Shown here piece after piece: positions 9,784 through 54,094 of a stretch of 64,000 bases of DNA. Position 1 is the stretch's first letter; every line of letters starts with the position of its first letter. Position numbers and translations under genes: made by a program. The notes below the pieces were generated by a model. That model was not told the origin of the DNA, searched no databases, and saw only the letters and a program-made list of their open reading frames with translations. The stretch is from Tenericutes bacterium MZ-XQ (GTDB lineage: Bacteria; Bacillota_I; Bacilli_A; Acholeplasmatales; Acholeplasmataceae): the NCBI GenBank assembly GCA_002838205.1, contig CP017950.1, forward strand, positions 372,001 through 436,000, written 5' to 3'.

Positions 9784-9808
9784 AACTGTGTTCAAGATAA
9801 ATACTGAT
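9784..9808 (+). repeat. Left terminal inverted repeat of the IS1595 element
   Basis: This 25-bp sequence is the exact reverse complement of 11035-11059. It also encodes the last five residues (YQYLS) and the TGA stop of the transposase on the minus strand. Confidence 0.95.
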
Positions 9809-10838
9809 ATGGCTTAAAAATATCAATAGGCCAATCTCTTTGATGAATATCACTTGATTTGATTGAAACATGGTTTGATATGACATATTTTAATGCCGCA
9901 TTTAAGTGCTTGTCATACTCCAATTGATACTTTAAATACTTCATGAACCTAAACCACATCAAGTAACCCTCTAAATGTTTCGTAGATACGCCTCTAAATC
10001 TTCTAAACCAGGTTTTTAATTCACTATGATAATTATTAATAACTCCTAAACTGTATTCATCTTTGGTGTGTTCACCAGAAGGAATTTGTGTAACTGAACA
10101 TTCTAATTGATGAGCAATATCAAAATAAGATGATTTACTATCTGATGTGATATGACTACCCGCTTTAACCTTACCTTTAATGGCATCGAAGATATCATCT
10201 TTCCACGGATTTCCTTGACCAACGACCTTCGTTAAAACCTGATCATTTTCATCAAGTGCGATAAGAACACAAACATGTTCATTAGAAACACCACGTAAAA
10301 CGGCGGGTTCACCTTTCTTCTTAGCAGATCTTGGCATTTGTTTACCTTTCCAAGGACCCTTCATGTTAAGAAGAAAATAAGTTTCATCAATCTCTATTTC
10401 CCCAGACAGTTTGACAACTTCCTGATAGTCTTTCATCGCTTCGATGACTTTATGACGCCACGCAAAGGCAGTAGTCGTTGAAATCCCAACTTCAGATGCA
10501 CTCTTTCTTAAAGATAGACCATAGAGCATACATTTGATAAACATCAACCACTGTTCATATGACTTCTTGGAGTAACGAACGATGGAATGATGGGTATCTG
10601 AAATAGATCTACTGGTTTGAGGATTGAGATACTTTTGACGACCAGTAGGTGTCTTACCGTTTCTAACATATCCGTTAGGAACTCGACGCTCTCTAAAGAT
10701 GATTTTATGAAGAGCATTCGCAGCATCATTGATTATCTTTTGATTCAGCTGCATTTTCTTAAGCAGTTCATTATAATCATCAGCACATAAAGTTTGAATG
10801 ATTGGGTACAATGTTTCTGGTGTTATAGCTTGATTCAT
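9792..10838 (-). CDS. IS1595-family (ISXO2-like) transposase
   Basis: This DDE transposase moves the surrounding element. The N-terminal part has a helix-turn-helix-like stretch (LRKSASEVGISTTTAFAWRHKV). The ISXO2-like catalytic domain follows, with acidic residues in EIDETYF, in TSDSKSSYFD and in NNYHSELKTWFRRF, then a conserved FRxFRGVSTKHLEGYLMWF-like tail. The open frame extends to a TTG at 10877. The ATG at 10838 is preferred because AAGGAGT (10848-10854) lies nine bases before it, giving 348 residues. The leader holds two interlocked inverted repeats that may limit translation. The stop codon is inside the left inverted repeat. Confidence 0.93.
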   Translation of the reverse strand: MNQAITPETLYPIIQTLCADDYNELLKKMQLNQKIINDAANALHKIIFRERRVPNGYVRNGKTPTGRQKYLNPQTSRSISDTHHSIVRYSKKSYEQWLMFIKCMLYGLSLRKSASEVGISTTTAFAWRHKVIEAMKDYQEVVKLSGEIEIDETYFLLNMKGPWKGKQMPRSAKKKGEPAVLRGVSNEHVCVLIALDENDQVLTKVVGQGNPWKDDIFDAIKGKVKAGSHITSDSKSSYFDIAHQLECSVTQIPSGEHTKDEYSLGVINNYHSELKTWFRRFRGVSTKHLEGYLMWFRFMKYLKYQLEYDKHLNAALKYVISNHVSIKSSDIHQRDWPIDIFKPYQYLS

Positions 10839-10874
10839 GTTTGGTAGACTCCTTAAATGATAAATGTCCTTAAG

Positions 10875-10983
10875 CAACCAGCTTGAATAGGAACTTTCTT
10901 ATCGCCAAACAAGAAATAGTGTCCAAGCTGGTTGATTAAAGACATCAACTTAAAAGGTATTCTATTCACTATTCTTGTTTGGC
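10875..10983 (-). repeat. Interlocked inverted repeats in the transposase leader
   Basis: Two inverted repeats alternate in the order A-B-A'-B'. A is CAACCAGCTTG (10875-10885), paired with its exact complement at 10924-10934. B starts GCCAAACAAG (10904-10921) and pairs with 10967-10983 over 17 bases with one bulged A. Because they interleave, both stems can form together only as a pseudoknot; otherwise they compete. They lie 20-130 bases upstream of the transposase ribosome site. Confidence 0.8.
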
Positions 10984-38580: not shown

Positions 38581-39540
38581 TTAAATATCTTTACTCATTT
38601 CAAATAAATGTTTGAACTTGCCTTGATCCAAATTTTTAATACATGTCTTTAAAACTTCTACACATTTTGCATATGCTTCAGGTTCTGATACACAGACATT
38701 TTCACATGCATGGTCATTTCGATATTTTAATGCTGATTGATCAAATCTTTCTTTCATCATTTGATTTAAATATTTGTGATCAGAAAACCCTGATAATTTT
38801 GATACTTCACTTACAGGTAGCTTTGTTTCTTTTAAAAGTTTTAATGCGTGTTCAAACCTAGCATTTTGCAAGAACTCTCTATAAGGAATACCTAGAGATT
38901 CTTTGACAAAATGAGATAACCGGTATTCAGATATGTCGACCAGTTTAGCGATATCATTCAAAGTTATTTTTTCATGAAAGTGTTGATATGTATACTCAAC
39001 AATCACATGAATTCGATTTAAATAATCATCATTATTAATATGCTTCACATCTAAATATCTTTCTTTTAAAATCATTCGGTATAAATCTAAGATATACATA
39101 TGATAGTATCCATTAATCTTATATCTAATCGCTGAACTCGTTTCATTTGAAACCAATAAACGAACAATTTGAATGATTAATAATGGCACTTCTTTATATT
39201 TAACGCTGAGCTCATCAAATGTATAGACTCTTTCGTTAAAATGAATTTTTTCAAAAAATAGATTATGTTTGTGTAAATAAGTCTTTTTTAAGCGAAAGCC
39301 AAGAATCATCGTATCATGATCTGATTCGATTTTGTGTTTTTTATACATGTATATTAAAAAAATGGTGTGCTCATCCATCTGATAGGTTCTATCATCAACT
39401 GTAATTTTAGCACTACCTTTAATGACCCATATGATCTCCATTTCCTCATGAATGACTTCATCGTGATGATGTCCTTGATAAAGATAGGTTTCAAATGGTA
39501 GATTGAGTTCTTTAAATAAATCGCAACATGTTTCTTTCAT
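38581..39540 (-). CDS. AraC-family regulator with cupin domain and Cys-rich tail
   Basis: A 319-residue transcription factor. The N-terminal cupin-like domain has YQGHHHDEVIHEEMEIIWVIKGSAKI, the usual ligand pocket. The two helix-turn-helix motifs of AraC are in ITLNDIAKLVDISEYRLSHFVKE and LPVSEVSKLSGFSDHKYLNQMMKE. The C-terminal 50 residues add four Cys (HACENVC, AKC, LKTC), unusual for AraC proteins and possibly metal- or redox-sensing. The ATG at 39540 follows GTGGTGAAC and is preferred to ATG 39570. It is divergent from the HypAB operon, so control of that operon is a natural guess. Confidence 0.85.
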   Translation of the reverse strand: MKETCCDLFKELNLPFETYLYQGHHHDEVIHEEMEIIWVIKGSAKITVDDRTYQMDEHTIFLIYMYKKHKIESDHDTMILGFRLKKTYLHKHNLFFEKIHFNERVYTFDELSVKYKEVPLLIIQIVRLLVSNETSSAIRYKINGYYHMYILDLYRMILKERYLDVKHINNDDYLNRIHVIVEYTYQHFHEKITLNDIAKLVDISEYRLSHFVKESLGIPYREFLQNARFEHALKLLKETKLPVSEVSKLSGFSDHKYLNQMMKERFDQSALKYRNDHACENVCVSEPEAYAKCVEVLKTCIKNLDQGKFKHLFEMSKDI

Positions 39541-39644
39541 ATGTTCACCACTTTCATTATAACAAAACATAACTCAATTTAATCTCTTCCAACAAATTAT
39601 GGGATTTTATGACTTTCTTGCTATAAAGAAGTACTTATTTCTAC

Positions 39645-39720: not shown

Positions 39721-40575
39721 ATGCCAGCATTAAGTTATATTGTTTCAATGGGCATATATATGTTATTATTGTTTTTATTTTTGGATGCAACCAGAGAAAA
39801 ACCGAAGTTTTATAAATGGTTTTTTATCTTAGTATTATTTTCAGCACCATTATGGTTTATGAACGACTTATCATGGTTTAGATGGGCAAAAGTTTTAAGT
39901 GTCTTAATTCCATTATGTTTCGTTTCATTTGTCAGAATGGCAAATGATGGTAGAGGCGTAAATGTGATAGAGTCTTTAAAAAAGAGATGGCCATTATGGG
40001 TATTATATTTCATTTTAATGTTAAACATCGTCGAAGCTACACTTTCTGATTTTGAAATGGGTAACTACTTCAATGCAGCTTGTGGTGTGATTCTGTGTAT
40101 CACAATTCCACTACCAACAAAACATTGGCGCATTTCATCATTTGATGGTAAACATCGTTTTGGTGAACTCATTGCAGATCTACCTTTAGCTTGGTGTATT
40201 TTATATACAACTTGGAATGTCACTTTTGTTTATGCAGAAAACACTGGCTTTGTTGCTTCTAGTATTTGTATCTTAACGATTCCATTTGTTTGGATGTTAT
40301 TTAGAAAACGTTCTGATTTATGGCTCATGGGTAGAATGTATACCTTAGGTCTTCATATCCTAATTCGTTCTAGTTATGATATCTTCTCTCCAGTCATGGA
40401 TTCAAGTGCATGGTGGAATGCAGATGTTGCATATTACTTAGGTTTAGCAAACTTAATTGGTCATGTGATTTATTTAGTTTATTGGTTCTTTAAAATCAGA
40501 AACAAAGATTACTATTTATCTCATGGCATTGATAACCCAAGCTACCAAAGAAAGTTAGAGGTATCTTATGAATAA
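39721..40575 (+). CDS. Trp-rich polytopic membrane protein (possibly DUF5692)
   Basis: A 284-residue membrane protein with seven to eight hydrophobic segments and many Trp (KWFFILVLFSAPLWFMNDLSWFRW). It may belong to the DUF5692 family, though I cannot confirm this. No transport motif is recognised. First gene of the operon, with AGGAGG before its ATG; its stop overlaps the hypB start by eight bases, so the two are translated together. A role in metal uptake or in anchoring the oxidoreductase is conceivable but unsupported. Confidence 0.65.
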   Translation: MPALSYIVSMGIYMLLLFLFLDATREKPKFYKWFFILVLFSAPLWFMNDLSWFRWAKVLSVLIPLCFVSFVRMANDGRGVNVIESLKKRWPLWVLYFILMLNIVEATLSDFEMGNYFNAACGVILCITIPLPTKHWRISSFDGKHRFGELIADLPLAWCILYTTWNVTFVYAENTGFVASSICILTIPFVWMLFRKRSDLWLMGRMYTLGLHILIRSSYDIFSPVMDSSAWWNADVAYYLGLANLIGHVIYLVYWFFKIRNKDYYLSHGIDNPSYQRKLEVSYE

Positions 40576-41239
40576 AGTTAAAGTGATTGAAATTCAAAAA
40601 AGAGTTTATGCGAATAATGATGAACAAGCAGCAATCTTAAGAGATGAGATTAACACAAACAAAACGTTTGTGATGAATCTCATGTCAAGTCCAGGTAGTG
40701 GTAAAACAACCATGCTTGTAAACACCATTAATCGCATTAAGCATAAAGTCAAGATTGGTATCGTAGAAGCTGATATTGATAGTGATGTTGATGCGTATAC
40801 GATTTTAGATCAAACTGGTGTTAAAGTAAACCAACTCCATTCTGGTGGTATGTGTCATTTAGATGCAGGTATGGCTAAAGAAGGATTAGAAGATATCGGT
40901 TATCAAGATTTAGATTTTGTCGTCATCGAAAATATCGGAAACTTGATATGTCCAGCATCTTATGATTTAGGACAATCCATGAATGCGATGATCTTATCTG
41001 TGCCTGAAGGTGATGATAAACCACTTAAATATCCAAAGATGTTTACAAAAGTTGACGTCTTAGTTATCAGTAAGATCGATACATTATCAGTTTTTGATTT
41101 TGATTTTAAACGCTTAGAAGAGAATGTTAGAAAATTAAATCCAGATATTAAGATATTCCCAATATCTGCAAAAACTGGAGAGGGTATGGATCAATGGTGT
41201 GACTTTTTAGTCGATAACATCGTTGCATTCAAAAATTAG
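40568..41239 (+). CDS. hypB: HypB-type nickel-insertion GTPase
   Basis: A 223-residue SIMIBI-class GTPase that, with HypA, delivers nickel into enzyme active sites. Walker A is SSPGSGKTT (residues 40-48), the nucleotide/metal switch contains EADIDSDVDA, the subunit-interface metal site is MCHLDA (Cys96, His97), and the base-recognition part is ISKIDTL. It lacks the N-terminal CXXCGC and His-rich nickel-storage segments found in some HypB proteins. It is translated with the upstream membrane gene and lies nine bases before the oxidoreductase. Confidence 0.94.
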   Translation: MNKVKVIEIQKRVYANNDEQAAILRDEINTNKTFVMNLMSSPGSGKTTMLVNTINRIKHKVKIGIVEADIDSDVDAYTILDQTGVKVNQLHSGGMCHLDAGMAKEGLEDIGYQDLDFVVIENIGNLICPASYDLGQSMNAMILSVPEGDDKPLKYPKMFTKVDVLVISKIDTLSVFDFDFKRLEENVRKLNPDIKIFPISAKTGEGMDQWCDFLVDNIVAFKN

Positions 41240-41247
41240 GAGGATAT

Positions 41248-43941
41248 ATGGCAAATCAAGAAAAATTATTAAGGTTTTGTAACAAAGTATCAAACACAAA
41301 AATGGGATCTAAAAATGGTGTTACCTATGACGATCCTAGATTTAAACTATTAGAAAAAGTCGTCACTGAAGAAATGGCTGAGGTTGCTTTAAAACTAGAG
41401 TTTAGAGGACCACAAACAGCTAAACAAATTGCAGATAAGCTTGGATGGACGGAAGACCGTACATTAGAATTGTTATGGCAACTCTCTTATGCTGGTGCTG
41501 CAGTTGTTAATAAAAAAGATGGCGAATTTAAGTTTTGGCATGAAACATGGGTTCCAGGTATATTTGAAATGGCAGTTAACAACTTAGAAAATGTTCGAAA
41601 ATACCCACAAATTGCTAAAGCATTTGATGATTATGGACTACTTAGAAATCCGATTGGATTTGGTAAAATCCCAATGGGTAATGGACTCATGAGAGTCATT
41701 CCGATTGCTTCTTCTATTGATGGTACATCACAAGTGGTTACCGCTGAAAAAGTAGATTTATACTTAGAAAAAGCAAGATTGATCTCCGTATCTGATTGTT
41801 CATGCCGTACGTCTCGTGAAGAGATGGGTCAAGGCTGTGGACATTTAAAAGAAGATATGTGTATTCAATTGGATGATGCAGCTGAACTTTATATTAGAAC
41901 AGGTAAAGCTAGACAAATTACTGTTGAAGAAGCGAAAGAGATCATGAGACGTGCTGAAGAAAACGGACTGATGCATCAAATTCCAAATACAGAAGGTGAA
42001 GGACATACACATGCGATTTGTAACTGCTGTGGATGTTCATGTTACGCACTACGTGCAGCAACCATGTATTCTAACCCTGACATGGTTAGATCAAACTTCA
42101 CTGCTGAAGTTGATCCTGACAAGTGTGTAGGTTGTGGTGAATGTACAATTTACTGTCCAACCAATGCAATTAAACTTGGACAACGTTTAATCGGATCGAT
42201 TGAAGAACAAAAACCTGTTCATAACCATAAAGCATGTAACACTGAATGGAATGAAGAACTTCACTTCCATCCAGATTATAGAACCAATAGAAAAGAATCC
42301 CTTGATACAGGTACTGCACCATGTAAGAGCGAATGTCCTGCACATATTTCTATTCCAGGATACATTCAACTTGCAGCTCAAGGTAAATATAAAGAAGCAT
42401 TAGCTTTAATTAAGAAAAACAATCCTTTCCCTGCTGTATGTGGTAGAGTTTGTCCAGCATTGTGTGAATCAGCTTGTACGAGATGTGCGATCGATGAAGC
42501 AGTTGCAATCGATGATATTAAAAAATTCATTGCTGAACAAGATTTAAATGAAGAAACAAGATATGTTCCAGAAATCAAGCACAACTATCAAGATAAACAT
42601 ATCGCAGTCATCGGTGGTGGTCCTTCTGGATTGTCATGTGCTTACTATTTAGCTGTTGAAGGATATAAAGTCACTGTTTTTGAAAAAGAAAAGACTTTAG
42701 GTGGTATGCTTCAATTTGGTATTCCAGCATTTAGATTACAAAAAGATGTCATTAACGCTGAAATTGATATCTTAAGAGCTTTAGGTGTTACTTTTGAAAT
42801 GGGTGTTCACGTTGGTGAAGATATCACCATACCTGAAATGAAAAAAGCAGGTTATAACGGATTCTTTATCGCGATCGGTGCTCAAAGTGGACGTCGTCTA
42901 GGTTTAGATAATGAAAATGCTAGAGGTATTGATACAGGTATTGATTTCTTAAGAGATGTTGCTTTAGGAAAACATAAGAAACTTACTGGTAAGACAGTTG
43001 TTATTGGTGGGGGTAACGTTGCAATCGATGTTGCAAGAACAGCTCAAAGAGTGGGTTCTAAAGATACACAAATGTTTTGTTTAGAAACTAGAGAAACCAT
43101 GCCAGCCTTAAAAGATGAAATTCATGAGGCTTTAGAAGAAAATATTACAATCAATAACTCTTATGGTCCTAAATCTTTTATCGTTGAAGAAGGTAAGGTT
43201 AAGGGTGTTGTGTTTAAAAAATGTTTATCAGTCTTCAATGAACAAGGACGATTTGCACCAGTATTTGATGAAGAAGACACGATTAGTGTTGAAGCAGACC
43301 ATGTATTAATTTCGGTAGGTCAATCGTTTGATTGGGGCAAATTACTTGCTGGAACAAGTGTTAGATTGAATCCAAATGGTACAGTGATGGTTGATAGTTT
43401 CACATTGCAATCAACTGATCCAGACATCTTCTTCGGTGGCGATGTAGTGACTGGTCCAAGATTTGCAATTGATGCAATCGCACTTGGTAAAGAAGGTGCT
43501 ATTTCACTGCATAGACATGTACAACGTGGTCAAAGCTTAGTTTATGGTCGTCAAAGACATCATTATGTATCTTTAGATCGTGATCAAATTGATTTAAGTA
43601 GTTATGATCAAGCAGGACGTCAAAGAGCAACTGCGAAGCATCTTAAAAAACTTGAAGGAAACTTCACAGATCCTAGAGGTATCTTAACTGAAGCACAAAT
43701 CGCTGCAGAAACCAATAGATGTTTAAAATGTGGTATCGCGATTGTTGATGAATATATGTGTGTTGGTTGTGGCCAATGTACAACCAAATGTAATTTTGAT
43801 GCCATACATTTAGTGAAAACAAGCAATGTCCATGGTGTTGATTTCCCTGATTTAAAGAAAGTCGTTATTAAAAACGTCTTAAAGAGAAAAGTTAAGATTA
43901 CTGCTAAAAACATTAGCAATGTCTTTAAAAGAAAAGATTAA
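41248..43941 (+). CDS. Multidomain FAD/Fe-S oxidoreductase (GltD-like core)
   Basis: An 897-residue fusion. Residues 1-150 include a winged-helix-like part (AKQIADKLGWTEDRTLELLWQL). About 180-275 is a Cys/His-rich block (SDCSCRTS, GQGCGHL, CNCCGCSCYAL). A ferredoxin-type 4Fe-4S motif (CVGCGECTIYCP) starts near 293. About 355-420 is the GltD-type N-terminal cluster domain (ECPAHISIP, VCGRVCPALCESACTR). The FAD site VIGGGPSGLSCAYYLA is near 454 and the NAD(P) site VIGGGNVAIDVARTA near 585. A second 4Fe-4S motif (CVGCGQCTTKC) is near 838. It should pass electrons between NAD(P)H, flavin and low-potential clusters. Its redox partner is unknown; it sits between hypB and hypA. Confidence 0.9.
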   Translation: MANQEKLLRFCNKVSNTKMGSKNGVTYDDPRFKLLEKVVTEEMAEVALKLEFRGPQTAKQIADKLGWTEDRTLELLWQLSYAGAAVVNKKDGEFKFWHETWVPGIFEMAVNNLENVRKYPQIAKAFDDYGLLRNPIGFGKIPMGNGLMRVIPIASSIDGTSQVVTAEKVDLYLEKARLISVSDCSCRTSREEMGQGCGHLKEDMCIQLDDAAELYIRTGKARQITVEEAKEIMRRAEENGLMHQIPNTEGEGHTHAICNCCGCSCYALRAATMYSNPDMVRSNFTAEVDPDKCVGCGECTIYCPTNAIKLGQRLIGSIEEQKPVHNHKACNTEWNEELHFHPDYRTNRKESLDTGTAPCKSECPAHISIPGYIQLAAQGKYKEALALIKKNNPFPAVCGRVCPALCESACTRCAIDEAVAIDDIKKFIAEQDLNEETRYVPEIKHNYQDKHIAVIGGGPSGLSCAYYLAVEGYKVTVFEKEKTLGGMLQFGIPAFRLQKDVINAEIDILRALGVTFEMGVHVGEDITIPEMKKAGYNGFFIAIGAQSGRRLGLDNENARGIDTGIDFLRDVALGKHKKLTGKTVVIGGGNVAIDVARTAQRVGSKDTQMFCLETRETMPALKDEIHEALEENITINNSYGPKSFIVEEGKVKGVVFKKCLSVFNEQGRFAPVFDEEDTISVEADHVLISVGQSFDWGKLLAGTSVRLNPNGTVMVDSFTLQSTDPDIFFGGDVVTGPRFAIDAIALGKEGAISLHRHVQRGQSLVYGRQRHHYVSLDRDQIDLSSYDQAGRQRATAKHLKKLEGNFTDPRGILTEAQIAAETNRCLKCGIAIVDEYMCVGCGQCTTKCNFDAIHLVKTSNVHGVDFPDLKKVVIKNVLKRKVKITAKNISNVFKRKD

Positions 43942-43943
43942 TC

Positions 43944-44285
43944 ATGCATGAATTAGGATTAGTCATTCAAATCGTTAGACAAGTTGAATCGTATATGGTT
44001 GAAAACAACTTATCAAAAGTTGAAAAGATTGTTTTACAAGTTGGTAAACTTAGTGAAGTTTATCCTAAATACTTAAAAGATGTTTATCCGATAGCTGTTG
44101 AAGGCACAAAACTTCAAGATACCATACTAGAAGTTGAGGAAACTGCAGGTATTGGTAAATGTGAGTCATGCGGATTTGTCTATGATTTAACAGAGAATAA
44201 TAATGTATGTCCACTTTGTGAAGAAAACAAGTTTTCAATCATTAGTGGAAGAGAATTTTTGATTAAAGAACTACACGCATATTAA
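43944..44285 (+). CDS. hypA: HypA-type nickel metallochaperone
   Basis: A 113-residue chaperone. The nickel site is the N-terminal Met-His-Glu (MHELGL), and the structural zinc site is two CXXC pairs, Cys73/Cys76 (CESC) and Cys89/Cys92 (CPLC). Length is standard. It follows the oxidoreductase by two bases and ends the operon at a terminator. HypA normally partners HypB in maturing NiFe hydrogenase and in some species urease; neither enzyme is in this window. Confidence 0.95.
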   Translation: MHELGLVIQIVRQVESYMVENNLSKVEKIVLQVGKLSEVYPKYLKDVYPIAVEGTKLQDTILEVEETAGIGKCESCGFVYDLTENNNVCPLCEENKFSIISGREFLIKELHAY

Positions 44286-44291
44286 CGTTAG

Positions 44292-44325
44292 AAAGCTAGT
44301 GTTGATTTCCAATACTAGCTTTTTA
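44292..44325 (+). terminator. Terminator or attenuator between hypA and the FmdE operon
   Basis: Stem AAAGCTAGT/ACTAGCTTT (44292-44300 with 44314-44322), 13-base loop, then TTTT. It lies only 28 bases before the next start, which leaves no room for a normal promoter. The downstream genes need read-through or a promoter inside hypA. Confidence 0.8.
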
Positions 44326-44352
44326 TAGGTTTATATGAAGAAAGGAATCATT

Positions 44353-44877
44353 ATGAAAAAAGAATTTAAAGGATGTATAGAATTTCATGGACATGCATGT
44401 CCTGGACTTGCGATTGGATATCAAGCTTATTTATATTTTTTAGAACATACAAACATAGATATGTTTAGTCTTGATGAAGAAATTGTCTGTATCAGTGAAA
44501 ATGATAGTTGTGCTGTTGATGCACTTCAATATTGTTTAGGATGTACTGTTGGTAAAGGTAATATGATGATTAACATGGTTGGTAAAATGGCTTTTTCATT
44601 TTATGTTAGAGATCAAAAAATCGCTTTTCGTATTGTTTTAAAACCATTACCTGAGATGTCAAAGGCAGATAAGCTTCGATATATACTTAATCAAGATCCT
44701 AAGGATTTATTTACATTAACAGATGTGAGTGAACCACTGCCTAAAAAAGCACGGATATATGCAAATATGAAGTGTCCGATGTGTCATGAATACTTTGCTG
44801 AACCTTTAAAGAAAGTACACCAAGGAGTTGAGATGTGTGCAACATGTTTTAAAGAAAGAAATCACGAATTCTATTGA
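44353..44877 (+). CDS. FmdE-family protein with zinc-ribbon tail
   Basis: A 174-residue protein of the FmdE family, named after subunit E of tungsten/molybdenum formylmethanofuran dehydrogenase. The core motif FHGHACPGLAIG is at residues 11-22, with further Cys in SENDSCAVDALQYCLGCTVG. The C-terminus is a CXXC-type zinc ribbon (CPMCHEYF ... CATCFKE). Stand-alone FmdE proteins often occur beside metal-chelate ABC importers, as here, and may handle metal or cofactor. ATG 44353 follows AAAGGA and is preferred over ATG 44335. It overlaps the permease start. Confidence 0.85.
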   Translation: MKKEFKGCIEFHGHACPGLAIGYQAYLYFLEHTNIDMFSLDEEIVCISENDSCAVDALQYCLGCTVGKGNMMINMVGKMAFSFYVRDQKIAFRIVLKPLPEMSKADKLRYILNQDPKDLFTLTDVSEPLPKKARIYANMKCPMCHEYFAEPLKKVHQGVEMCATCFKERNHEFY

Positions 44878-45901
44878 TCGTTATAAGTTCATCAAACGAA
44901 AGAAAAGGCTCGTTTTATATGCTTTATCTTTCTTATTAATTAAATTAAGTATCAGTGCGCTTTTTATAGGCACATATGATATCACTTTTTTAGAGATGCT
45001 AACAGCACTCTTTAAAACAAGTGAAGAGCAAGCGCATGTGTTACTCATGTGGAACATGAGGCTTCCAAGAGTTGTTGTTGCGGTTGTGGCCGGAGCAGGT
45101 TTATCTATATCAGGTGCGATTATGCAAACGACCCTAAACAATGACTTAGCATCTCCTTCTACTCTAGGCATTACTTCAGCAGCAACTTTTGGAGCCAATC
45201 TTTCCATTATTTTTATAGGGTCTACAGTACTCATGCAAATGCCCTATATCACTACACTTACGGCATTTTTATGTTCAATGATTGCTGTATCTTTGATATT
45301 AGGATTATCAAAATTAAAAACTTTTACCCCTGGTGTGATCATCTTAGCGGGGGTTGCAATGAGCTCTTTATTTCAAGCAATGACGACTATACTCCAGTAC
45401 TTCTCAGACCAAAATACTTTGTCACAAGCAGTTTTTTGGACGTTTGGGGATTTATCTAGAGCGAACTGGCAAGATATTATCATCTTAACTGTAACTGTGA
45501 TTTTATCTTATGTCTTCTTTTATATAAAGCGTCATGATTATGAAGGATTATCTCATGGAGAGTTATATGCAGCAAGTATAGGTATAAAAACACAAAAGCT
45601 TAGACTGATATCCATATTGGTTGCATCTCTTTTGACAAGTGTTTGTGTGTCTTTTTTAGGTATGATTGGTTTTATTGGACTCATTGGTCCTCATATCATG
45701 AAAAAAATGATTGGAAAGGATCATCGCTTATTTATTCCAGGAAGTGCCCTTTTAGGTAGCATCATCTTACTTTTTGCAGATATGATTTCAAGAACGATTA
45801 TTGCACCAATCACACTACCAATTGGCGCAATCACTTCTTGTTTAGGTGCTGGTTTATTCTTATATATTTTACTTAAGAAAAAGGAGTCATCATCATGTTA
45901 A
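44837..45901 (+). CDS. FecCD-type metal-chelate ABC permease
   Basis: A membrane permease of the FecCD/BtuC family with about ten spans. Family segments are WNMRLPRVVVAVVAGAGLSISG, LASPSTLGITSAATFGANL and FIGLIGPHIMKKMIGKDHR, the last being the ATPase contact. No ATG fits: the frame opens with TTG at 44828 directly against AAGGAG, and the GTG at 44837 is nine bases after that ribosome site, so GTG is preferred (354 residues). It overlaps the FmdE end by about 40 bases, implying coupled expression. Substrate could be an iron, nickel, cobalt or other metal complex. Confidence 0.87.
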   Translation: MQHVLKKEITNSIDRYKFIKRKKRLVLYALSFLLIKLSISALFIGTYDITFLEMLTALFKTSEEQAHVLLMWNMRLPRVVVAVVAGAGLSISGAIMQTTLNNDLASPSTLGITSAATFGANLSIIFIGSTVLMQMPYITTLTAFLCSMIAVSLILGLSKLKTFTPGVIILAGVAMSSLFQAMTTILQYFSDQNTLSQAVFWTFGDLSRANWQDIIILTVTVILSYVFFYIKRHDYEGLSHGELYAASIGIKTQKLRLISILVASLLTSVCVSFLGMIGFIGLIGPHIMKKMIGKDHRLFIPGSALLGSIILLFADMISRTIIAPITLPIGAITSCLGAGLFLYILLKKKESSSC

Positions 45902-46644
45902 GTGTCAATAACCTCTCTTTTGCATATGGTCATAAAGTCGTATTAAAAGACATTAGTTTTTCAATTCAAAAAGGGGACTGTTTGGTCATTTTGGGCCATA
46001 ATGGTGCTGGAAAATCAACACTTTTAAAAACGCTCAATCATTTGCTAAAAGCAAACACTGGTAGTGTGATTATGAATAATCAAAACATCAAGGATATGAC
46101 TCCCATTAAAAGAGCTCAGAAGATTGCATATGTCCCACAGTCTTTATCATTTCATGAAGCATCTGTTTTTGATACAGTTTTATTAGGTAGAAAACCTTAT
46201 ATGTCACATAGAGTTTCAGATGATGATTTAATCAAAACTGATCAAATCATCAAAGCGCTAAATCTTGATGAGATCGCGTTTGATGATATTACAAAATTAA
46301 GTGGAGGGCAAAGACAAAAAGTTGCGATTGCTAGAGCACTTAATCAAGAAACAGAGTTACTGCTGCTTGATGAACCCACTGCAAATCTTGATTTAAAAAA
46401 TCAACTTGAACTAACACAATTCATGAAACATATTGCACAAAATCATGATAAGACAATGATTGTAACGATGCATGACCTCAATCTTGCACTTCGATTTGGA
46501 AACAAATTTTTATTTCTAAAAGATCATCAAGTCTATGAGTTTGGCACAGGTGACATCATCACTGAAAAACTCATCAAAGCTATTTATCAAGTTGATGTAA
46601 AAATGATTGAGCATGACTTTAAAAAACACATGATAACACTATAG
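45895..46644 (+). CDS. Metal-chelate ABC importer ATPase (FepC-like)
   Basis: A 249-residue ABC ATPase of the FepC/BtuD/FecE group. Walker A LGHNGAGKST, signature LSGGQRQKVAIARAL, Walker B LLLLDEPTANLD and the H-loop VTMHDLNLAL are intact. The start overlaps the permease stop by seven bases. With the FecCD permease and the downstream binding lipoprotein it forms a complete type II importer. Confidence 0.93.
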   Translation: MLSVNNLSFAYGHKVVLKDISFSIQKGDCLVILGHNGAGKSTLLKTLNHLLKANTGSVIMNNQNIKDMTPIKRAQKIAYVPQSLSFHEASVFDTVLLGRKPYMSHRVSDDDLIKTDQIIKALNLDEIAFDDITKLSGGQRQKVAIARALNQETELLLLDEPTANLDLKNQLELTQFMKHIAQNHDKTMIVTMHDLNLALRFGNKFLFLKDHQVYEFGTGDIITEKLIKAIYQVDVKMIEHDFKKHMITL

Positions 46645-46653
46645 GAGATTAAA

Positions 46654-47751
46654 ATGAAAAAATCAATAATGATATGCATTATAATAATCTTATTCATGAC
46701 TCTAACAGGATGCATGAATACGGATGAAACACTAAATGATGACATCAAAATCATTGATGTCTATGATCGTGAAGTTTATATACCTAAAGATGCTTCGACA
46801 TTTGTTTGTATAGGACCTAACGCACTTAGATTATACACATATATAGCTGATCCAAATCACATTGTAGGTATCGAAAACTTTGAACTATTACAACAAACAA
46901 AAGGTAGACCTTATATCTTAAAATATCAAGATATCATTGATCAATTACCAATCATTGGTGAAGGTGGACCTAAAGCATCTCCAAATGCAGAACTTATCTT
47001 ATCTGCAAATCCAGATGTGATCATTGCGAGCAGTCTTTATGAAAAAAACGTTATTGATGATTTATATCAAACGCTAAACATTCCAATCGTAACGATAACC
47101 AATGATACATCTGAAGGTAGTTTGTTTAGTGAAGATCTCATGAACTCTCTAGAAAATATAGGCATCATCACAGGAAATACTGAAAGATCAACACAACTCA
47201 TTGAATATATCAATAGTATAAAAGCTGATTTAAACCAAAGAACCAAGGAATTAAATCATAAAAAAACTGCCTATATCGGCAGTTTATCAAAAGCTGGACA
47301 TCAGCAAATCACAAGCACTTCTGGCAGCTATGAAATTTTTGATTTAGTCAATGTCATAAATATTGCACATACAAAAGGTATTGATCAATATGCAAATATC
47401 GAGAAAGAAACACTTCTTTCTTGGAATCCAGAGATTATTATTCTTGATCTTAATGGATATGACCTGTTTTTAACAGATTATCAAACACATCAAACATACT
47501 ATGAGCACTTAAATGCATTTCAAAACAACGAGGTCTATATGCAGTTTCCATATAATTTCTATTCAACAAACATTGAGGTTGCGATTGCTAACTGTTACCA
47601 TTTAGGATCTGTACTTTATCCAGATGAGTTTAGTGATATTGATATAGAAGATAAAGTAAATGACATAGGACAAGCATTCTTAAACATCGATATTTATGAA
47701 AGTCTTCATAGTGACTATCATCAAGGTTATCAAACTGAACTACAAAAATGA
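46654..47751 (+). CDS. Metal-chelate-binding lipoprotein (PF01497-like)
   Basis: A 365-residue exported lipoprotein: N-terminus MKKSIMICIIIILFMTLTGC with the lipobox LTGC at Cys20. The mature part is the BtuF/FepB-type fold with DVYDREVYIPKDASTFVCIGPNALRLYTYI, SANPDVIIASSLYEKN and the second-lobe start. It would capture the ligand for the FecCD importer. ATG follows GGAG. A bidirectional terminator ends the operon. Confidence 0.9.
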   Translation: MKKSIMICIIIILFMTLTGCMNTDETLNDDIKIIDVYDREVYIPKDASTFVCIGPNALRLYTYIADPNHIVGIENFELLQQTKGRPYILKYQDIIDQLPIIGEGGPKASPNAELILSANPDVIIASSLYEKNVIDDLYQTLNIPIVTITNDTSEGSLFSEDLMNSLENIGIITGNTERSTQLIEYINSIKADLNQRTKELNHKKTAYIGSLSKAGHQQITSTSGSYEIFDLVNVINIAHTKGIDQYANIEKETLLSWNPEIIILDLNGYDLFLTDYQTHQTYYEHLNAFQNNEVYMQFPYNFYSTNIEVAIANCYHLGSVLYPDEFSDIDIEDKVNDIGQAFLNIDIYESLHSDYHQGYQTELQK

Positions 47752-47770
47752 CCCTAGTGGTCATTTTTTT
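47744..47770. terminator. Bidirectional terminator
   Basis: Stem AAATGACC/GGTCATTT with a 5-base loop and T runs on both sides, between the convergent genes ending at 47751 and 47817. Confidence 0.88.
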
Positions 47771-52933: not shown

Positions 52934-54094
52934 ATGATCTATATCGGTATCGATATTTCAAAGTACAAGCACGACTGTTTCATCGCCACCGAAACAGTTG
53001 ATTATCAGTTCTCATTTGAGAACAGTCAGTCCGGGTTTAAAGAACTTTTAGAGCATTTTAAACCCTATGTGAAGCAAGAAATGATAATAGGCTTAGAGGC
53101 TACAGGTCATTATGGTGAAAATCTTAAGTCATTTCTTACCCTCCATGGCTATTCGTTCATGGAGATTAATCCTTTTCTAGTGAAGAAGTTTGGAGAAGCC
53201 CATTCACTAAGAAAAACAAAGACGGATAAGAAAGATGCTCAATTGATTTCAACTTATATGAGATCTGTAGACTACAAAGCCTATCATCATCAATCTTATC
53301 ATATAAGTGCTTTAAAATCACTGACTAGGTTACGATTTAAACTCATTTCTATACGGACAAAGCACTACAATATGATGACTAAGGTCTTAGATGTCATCTT
53401 TCCTGAATATAAGCCTTTTATGCGAGAACAAGGCTATAGTGGTACATCTTTGCACATTTTAAAACGTTTTTCTTCTCCAGATAAAATCGCTAAGATGACC
53501 GATAGTCATTTCGATAAACTTCGAAGACTATCAAAGGGTAAGTTCAATTATCCTAAGTTTGTGAAGCTGAAAGACCTCGCGAAATCAACCATTGGTGTCA
53601 CTCAAGATCATCAACTCTTTAAATTAAAGACCTCAATCTCATATGTTGAGAAACTTAACACTGATATCGAAGAAACTGAGAAACAAATCACTTCTTTAAT
53701 GGAACGGTATCCAACAAAGATTCAAACAATTATGGGTATTGGCATCATTTCAGCAGCTATTATTATATGTGAATACGGAGACATTCGGCTTTTCTCAAAT
53801 CCCTCTGAAATGTTATCCTATGCAGGTCTAGATTCAACCATCAAACAATCTGGCACCATGTCTTCTACAGGTAAACTTGTCAAACGCGGTAGTAAATATC
53901 TACGTTCTACGCTCGTTAATATTTGCCTGATGGTTATGACTCACAACCCTGTGTTCTATGATTATTACACCAAGAAGAAACAAGAGGGGAAACATCACCG
54001 TGTCGCACTTATTCATCTCGCCAAAAAACTGATTAGAGTGATTCATCATTTGGAAACTCATCATGAAGATTTTGATTCTTCTAAACTCAAATAA
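52934..54094 (+). CDS. IS110-family transposase (DEDD / Transposase_20)
   Basis: A 386-residue RNA-guided-type recombinase. The N-terminal RuvC-like DEDD domain has MIYIGIDISKYKHDCFI, IIGLEATGHYGENL and KTKTDKKDAQLIS. The C-terminal Transposase_20 domain has IMGIGIISAAIIICEYGDI, LSYAGLDSTIKQSGT and the serine/Arg-rich KRGSKYLRSTLVNIC, which contains the catalytic Ser of the family. Length is usual and the frame is intact, so it may be active. ATG follows AAGGAGGTGTACTT. Confidence 0.94.
   Translation: MIYIGIDISKYKHDCFIATETVDYQFSFENSQSGFKELLEHFKPYVKQEMIIGLEATGHYGENLKSFLTLHGYSFMEINPFLVKKFGEAHSLRKTKTDKKDAQLISTYMRSVDYKAYHHQSYHISALKSLTRLRFKLISIRTKHYNMMTKVLDVIFPEYKPFMREQGYSGTSLHILKRFSSPDKIAKMTDSHFDKLRRLSKGKFNYPKFVKLKDLAKSTIGVTQDHQLFKLKTSISYVEKLNTDIEETEKQITSLMERYPTKIQTIMGIGIISAAIIICEYGDIRLFSNPSEMLSYAGLDSTIKQSGTMSSTGKLVKRGSKYLRSTLVNICLMVMTHNPVFYDYYTKKKQEGKHHRVALIHLAKKLIRVIHHLETHHEDFDSSKLK

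Follow-up and report, generated by a model that had tools for sequence, protein, structure and literature searches.

Why a small bacterial genome should carry genes for the nickel chaperones HypA and HypB on either side of a large redox protein gene, with no nickel enzyme encoded beside them, is the question raised by a locus of Tenericutes bacterium MZ-XQ (GenBank assembly GCA_002838205.1, contig CP017950.1). The locus lies within positions 372,001 to 436,000 of the contig; this whole stretch of 64,000 nucleotides is called the window here. The best explanation, which we consider likely, is that the 897-residue fusion protein encoded between hypB and hypA is an IsrA-type oxidoreductase that has HypB and HypA as its own nickel-insertion pair.

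Four genes on the plus strand, encoding a DUF5692 protein, HypB, the fusion protein and HypA, follow each other almost without gaps (Table 1). The start of hypB overlaps the DUF5692 gene by 8 base pairs and hypA starts 2 base pairs past the fusion gene, and the four genes form a tight operon. Downstream of hypA a hairpin with a T-run is followed by genes for an FmdE-family protein and for the FecCD-type permease, the ATPase and the binding protein of an importer. Open reading frames and domain scores bore out the gene order (hypB, fusion, hypA, FmdE, FecCD importer) proposed in an earlier, sequence-only reading of this DNA, which had passed over the DUF5692 protein, the divergent AraC-type gene and the hairpin between hypA and fmdE.

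Known nickel enzymes number about ten. The source genome (G000) is complete, a single contig of 2,157,199 bases with an estimated completeness of 99.98%, and it gave no match to the [NiFe]-hydrogenase large subunit (PF00374), to carbon monoxide dehydrogenase (CODH) and hybrid-cluster protein (Hcp) (PF03063), to the lactate racemase LarA (PF09861) or to the urease alpha subunit (PF00449). These absences rest on family searches whose positive controls matched in well-known genomes; PF03063 does not separate CODH from Hcp, and only total absence was counted as evidence. HypD gave no match either; no individual searches were made for HypC, HypE and HypF. The check suggested by the sequence-only reading was thus run for hypD, the NiFe large subunit, ureC, larA and cooS, and all of them were absent. 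Its proposal of a nickel client encoded at another place in the genome does not hold for hydrogenase, urease, CODH or LarA, and [NiFe]-hydrogenase, CODH/Hcp, LarA and urease were rejected as candidate clients.

By its published family features, and not by a direct alignment with IsrA, the 897-residue fusion is almost certainly an IsrA-type (clade 9) oxidoreductase. IsrA, from Acetobacterium wieringae ISORED-2, is a putative isoprene reductase; the study describing it defined ‘clade 9’ with Tenericutes listed among the hosts, reported hypA near 73%, hypB near 56% and DUF5692 near 40% of 988 IsrA homologues, and put IsrA forward as the nickel client, naming the Cys6 ‘cluster V’ as a site where the metal might bind (Kronen et al. 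2023, PMC10134865). The fusion family, its hyp neighbourhood and the nickel-client idea are therefore already in print. By that description, the two proteins share a length of about 900 amino acids, the domains Fer4, PF14691 and PF07992 in the same order, adjacent hypA and hypB genes, a DUF5692 neighbour and a host without [NiFe]-hydrogenase. Both also have an N-terminal domain of no known family with two CxC motifs 74 residues apart, at 180/182 and 254/256 in IsrA (PMC10134865) and at 184/186 and 258/260 in the fusion, where they are invariant in 58 of 58 homologues.

These 58 relatives align with the fusion over almost its whole length at 57-90% identity, and in the 58-fusion tree the window protein groups with sequences from Acholeplasmataceae, HGW-Tenericutes and Izemoplasma and with Erysipelotrichaceae-like ones; the closest named relative is an uncultured Acholeplasmataceae bacterium (locus L031). 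Along the protein, a ferredoxin motif is followed by a double [4Fe-4S] domain, a flavin adenine dinucleotide (FAD)/NAD(P)H module and a C-terminal ferredoxin motif. Residues C184, C186, C197, H199, C205, H243, H255, C258, C260, C261, C263 and C265 are invariant in all homologues, and the ligands of the ferredoxin-like and double [4Fe-4S] domains are likewise kept in all of them. For the N-terminal 344 residues, Pfam and PDB sequence searches gave ferredoxin motifs only. The AlphaFold model of the fusion (predicted local distance difference test score, pLDDT, 87.9) placed residues 354-854 close to NfnABC/StnABC subunits that bind FAD, NAD(P)H and [4Fe-4S] clusters (Z about 40, root-mean-square deviation about 2.3 over 480 residues), a model comparison which was dominated by this C-terminal module and barely sampled the N-terminal fold.

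The chaperones keep their metal sites, as the sequence-only reading had stated. HypA has Met1-His2-Glu3 and CxxC pairs at 73/76 and 89/92, and Cys96-His97 and Cys128 of HypB align with the metal-site Cys-His and Cys of Helicobacter pylori HypB (4lps). Against the NCBIfam hydrogenase equivalog TIGR00100, HypA scored 68.0 bits, under the cut-off of 88.1, and on its sequence it is a HypA-family protein that has diverged from the hydrogenase equivalog.

A search of 84,980 species genomes yielded 79 loci with relatives of the fusion at 57-90% identity, distributed over Bacillota, Mycoplasmatota, Spirochaetota, Chloroflexota, Pseudomonadota and Thermodesulfobacteriota and chiefly over groups of anaerobes. 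In tblastn searches of these loci HypA was detected in 71 and HypB in 65, usually in the order HypB-fusion-HypA; since the arrangement recurs in at least five phyla, it is not due to chance. Where HypA or HypB was not adjacent, the genome still encoded HypA in 14 of 14 cases and HypB in 13 of 14. Of 50 fusion-holding genomes, 33 had no PF00374 match. Seven genomes (G000, G002, G061-G064 and G091) matched none of the four nickel-enzyme families, G000 being the only one known to be complete.

Within the order, 61 genomes were sampled (own genome, genus, family and order). A full-length fusion was present in two of them, G000 and G002, and HypA and HypB exceeded their cut-offs in exactly these two; HypD was found in none of the 61. 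If the genomes were independent, such a perfect match would occur by chance once in 1,830. Whether or not the unit was acquired only once, the arrival of the chaperones coincides with that of the fusion and not with that of any known nickel enzyme. In the nearest relative of the window the fusion is 90% identical and lies in the same gene order. Because HypA and HypB share the presence and absence pattern of the fusion, in the order as well as in distant genomes, the fusion appears to be their client; on this co-occurrence we regard it as quite likely that the fusion is a nickel protein. Of the two clients named by the sequence-only reading, the fusion or FmdE, the former is thus supported and the latter is not.

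Several genomes apparently hold more than one IsrA-type fusion (loci L048, L089 and L101/L104, genomes G065 and G109). Fusion copies without adjacent hyp genes were accompanied by a HypB-HypA pair elsewhere, with about 2.8 kb between the two genes, room for another fusion. This suggests that HypB-HypA pairs are shared among several fusions.

Metal importers were also found beside the trio of HypB, fusion and HypA. In the spirochaete loci L039 and L041, hypA is followed by a CbiM-PDGLE fusion gene and then by CbiQ and CbiO, a nickel/cobalt importer of the energy-coupling factor (ECF) type, and in the spirochaete locus L064 a CbiM/PDGLE/CbiQ/CbiO set is convergent to the trio. In Clostridium algidicarnis (L097, 13659-20069) a second, more divergent HypB, NikA/NikB-like proteins and two ATPases stand next to the trio. 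A FecCD-type importer occupies the matching place in the window, L032 and L033, and a set of FmdE, FecCD permease, ATPase and substrate-binding protein lies upstream of hypB in L046, L053, L061 and L070; L053, L061 and L070 form one clade, so that the FmdE cases represent about three independent arrangements. By analogy, these neighbourhoods suggest that the FecCD importer of the window brings in a nickel chelate. Such importer links are not named as neighbours in the sections of PMC10134865 covered here. Compared with what is in print, the order-wide match of fusion, HypA and HypB, the share of hydrogenase-free genomes among fusion holders, the hyp genes encoded elsewhere in the genome and the importers beside the trio are new.

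In the mechanism that we propose, HypB would load Ni(II) and hand the nickel to HypA on GTP hydrolysis, and HypA would deliver it to the N-terminal domain of the fusion, with C184/C186, C197/H199/C205, H255 and C258-C265 as candidate ligands. The nickel may then sit in or beside an Fe-S site of this domain. The Nfn/GltD-like residues 354-854 would take electrons from NAD(P)H, and the flanking [4Fe-4S] clusters could wire them to the N-terminal site, where an unsaturated, probably conjugated C=C substrate would be reduced, as proposed for IsrA and isoprene. This ene-reduction is drawn by analogy and is a tentative part of the scheme. DUF5692 may act as a membrane accessory and the AraC-type protein is the likely regulator, whereas the FmdE/FecCD genes would form an optional neighbouring import unit for a metal chelate, probably of nickel. 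That the fusion represents a new class of nickel enzyme, an NAD(P)H-driven reductase that holds its nickel at an Fe-S site rich in Cys and His, within a domain not assigned to any known family, served by dedicated HypA and HypB outside the hydrogenase pathway and the host's only nickel enzyme of the kinds searched, stands at about even chances in our view.

Several points weigh against this interpretation. G000 and G002 belong to the same genus, and their co-occurrence pattern may go back to one event in which the whole unit was acquired. One genome (G113, a metagenome-assembled genome of 1.9 Mb) has the fusion and HypA and gave no HypB match. The relation of the fusion to IsrA is based on shared features, not on a direct alignment with VUZ27132.1. 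Isoprene reduction by IsrA is itself derived from proteomics and not from the purified enzyme (PMC10134865), and our literature search found neither a metal measurement on any IsrA-type protein nor later biochemical work on IsrA. The window operon has neither the ferredoxin gene nor the second hypA of the isr operon, and therefore its substrate need not be isoprene. The four families absent from the genome do not include nickel superoxide dismutase, acireductone dioxygenase and glyoxalase I, which were not searched. These three could be counted in favor of the idea that HypA and HypB serve a different nickel enzyme elsewhere and that the fusion is only an electron-transfer or maturation partner; to our knowledge, however, none of them needs HypA or HypB. 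Genes can adjoin in an operon without encoding a chaperone and its client, and the assembly of an Fe-S/Ni site could be aided by a redox partner. Yet the complete genome lacks hydrogenase, HypD, CODH/Hcp, LarA and urease, and HypA and HypB accompany the fusion in phyla whose nickel enzymes differ widely, and we consider a different client unlikely.

Slightly less probable still is that the system handles another metal, such as cobalt or zinc, or that HypA and HypB have an Fe-S or corrinoid-type function for the fusion. CbiM-type ECF importers take up either cobalt or nickel and their NCBIfam matches named cobalt, iron chelates, haem or cobalamin are the usual cargo of FecCD importers, and HypA stays under its equivalog cut-off; on the other side, the Met-His-Glu nickel site of HypA and the Cys-His...Cys site of HypB are kept, and the proteins beside the trio in L097 resemble a nickel transporter and include a further HypB. 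We give very little credence to FmdE, alone or with the FecCD importer, as the nickel client. Its gene adjoins hypA in the window and the set stands near hypB in the four loci named above, but FmdE occurs in only one of 61 order-mates and in four of the 79 other fusion loci, the L032 importer has no FmdE, and a hairpin separates hypA from fmdE. No FmdE was detected in the trio-bearing G002, whose contig ends beside hypA, so that the gene may be missing there through a gap. FmdE is dispensable to the trio, and as a candidate client it was rejected on this distribution. Least probable of all, with hardly a chance, is that the unit is an acquired relic without present function: few genomes of the order have it and the window contains two transposase genes, but no reading frame is broken, none of the metal and cluster ligands varies, and identity and gene order are maintained in the nearest relative. 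The explanation of the fusion as an IsrA-type enzyme with its own nickel-insertion pair thus seems to account best for these observations.

Table 1. Features of the locus and of related loci; positions refer to the window unless a locus is given
Feature	Position	Strand	Basis
AraC-family regulator, divergent from operon	38581..39570	-	Pfam HTH_18 58 bits, AraC_binding 33 bits
DUF5692 membrane protein	39721..40575	+	PF18948 34.4 bits (cut-off 27)
HypB GTPase, nickel insertion protein	40568..41239	+	TIGR00073 246 bits (cut-off 121)
IsrA-type (clade 9) FAD/NAD(P)H/[4Fe-4S] oxidoreductase, 897 amino acids	41248..43941	+	Fer4, Fer4_20, Pyr_redox_2
Codons of the invariant N-terminal Cys/His site of the fusion, proposed nickel/Fe-S site	41797..42042	+	58-homologue alignment
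HypA nickel metallochaperone	43944..44285	+	PF01155 100 bits (cut-off 28.9); PDB HypA 3a43, 6g81, 2kdx
Hairpin and T-run between hypA and fmdE	44289..44325	+	Fold of 44286-44335, -20.7 kcal/mol
FmdE-family protein	44335..44877	+	PF02663 111 bits; PDB 2gvi, 2glz
FecCD-type metal-chelate ABC importer permease	44828..45901	+	PF01032 288 bits, residues 37-350
ABC importer ATPase, FecE-like	45895..46644	+	PF00005 116 bits
Importer substrate-binding lipoprotein (Peripla_BP_2)	46654..47751	+	PF01497 78 bits
Terminator-like hairpin closing the importer operon	47744..47768	+	
CbiM, PDGLE/NikN-like, CbiQ and CbiO beside the trio	L039:12976-15543, L041:12976-15486, L064:13093-15721		

The hairpin after hypA is a probable terminator or attenuator; it is also a near-perfect 16-bp inverted repeat, and a role as operator is an alternative. 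The true start of fmdE is probably the ATG at 44353, because a Shine-Dalgarno-like AAAGGA precedes it, and the listed start of the FecCD permease is a TTG inside fmdE, the true start probably lying later. Genes for IS110- and IS1595-type transposases are located at a distance on both sides (52934-54094 on the plus strand, 9792-10877 on the minus strand).

The AlphaFold model of the DUF5692 protein (pLDDT 79.6) is a helical bundle with about seven predicted helices of transmembrane length. Foldseek found no PDB match at E <= 0.001 and structure comparison gave generic seven-helix matches only (Z < 8), and a known transporter fold was not supported. The DUF5692 proteins of the window and of loci L034-L106 fall into two subfamilies, a window type of Mycoplasmatota and Erysipelotrichia and a main type, with 21-25% identity between them; both types occur in L035 and L037, and two main-type copies in L045, L075, L095, L096 and L106. 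An AraC-type homologue was also found near the fusion in L031, L032 and L034-L038. Recurring neighbours of the fusion were GntR, TetR and AraC regulators, DUF5692, an amine-oxidase-like flavoprotein, an ECF S component and a methyltransferase, and none of the enzymes among the neighbours consistently hinted at a substrate. A Tissierellia-like cassette near the trio (L044, L053, L054, L061, L066, L070, L085, L086, L092 and L100) combines a helix-turn-helix protein of about 353 amino acids with an amine-oxidase-like flavoprotein of about 420 amino acids; at several loci hypA is also followed by genes for an ECF S component and a methyltransferase.

If the IsrA-type reductase is a nickel enzyme, one more such enzyme is widespread among anaerobes, and HypA and HypB could not be read as markers of hydrogenase or urease in genome annotation. 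Its substrate, be it isoprene, another conjugated diene or an unsaturated lipid, bears on anaerobic C=C hydrogenation. A. wieringae has no [NiFe]-hydrogenase, but it has CODH and lactate racemases, which the study could not exclude as clients of the chaperones (PMC10134865). The window genome, unlike that of A. wieringae, matches neither, and a nickel phenotype would therefore point far more directly to the fusion. Since this genome is small, complete and free of the nickel enzymes searched for, the nickel question of IsrA-type proteins is directly testable in it.

Compared with the isr operon as described in the text of PMC10134865, which comprises isrA, two hypA genes, hypB and a separate 4Fe-4S ferredoxin gene, the window operon has one hypA and no ferredoxin gene, begins with the DUF5692 gene and is accompanied by the AraC-type regulator; that text names neither FmdE nor the FecCD importer as a neighbour. 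This set has the domains of FmdE and FecCD/BtuCD-type importers (PF02663, PF01032, PF00005 and PF01497) and is tied to HypB-fusion-HypA in few lineages only. With the HypA and HypB proteins of [NiFe]-hydrogenase and urease maturation in H. pylori and Escherichia coli, the window proteins share the MHE motif and the two CxxC pairs of HypA and the Cys-His and Cys of the HypB G-domain; unlike there, the genome is without HypD, hydrogenase and urease, and HypA falls below the equivalog cut-off. Residues 354-854 of the fusion have the double [4Fe-4S] domain and FAD/NAD(P)H fold of NfnABC/StnABC transhydrogenases, GltD and dihydropyrimidine dehydrogenase (Z 26-41). In contrast to GltD, dihydropyrimidine dehydrogenase and the electron-bifurcating NfnABC/StnABC enzymes, the fusion carries 350 additional N-terminal residues with the Cys/His site.

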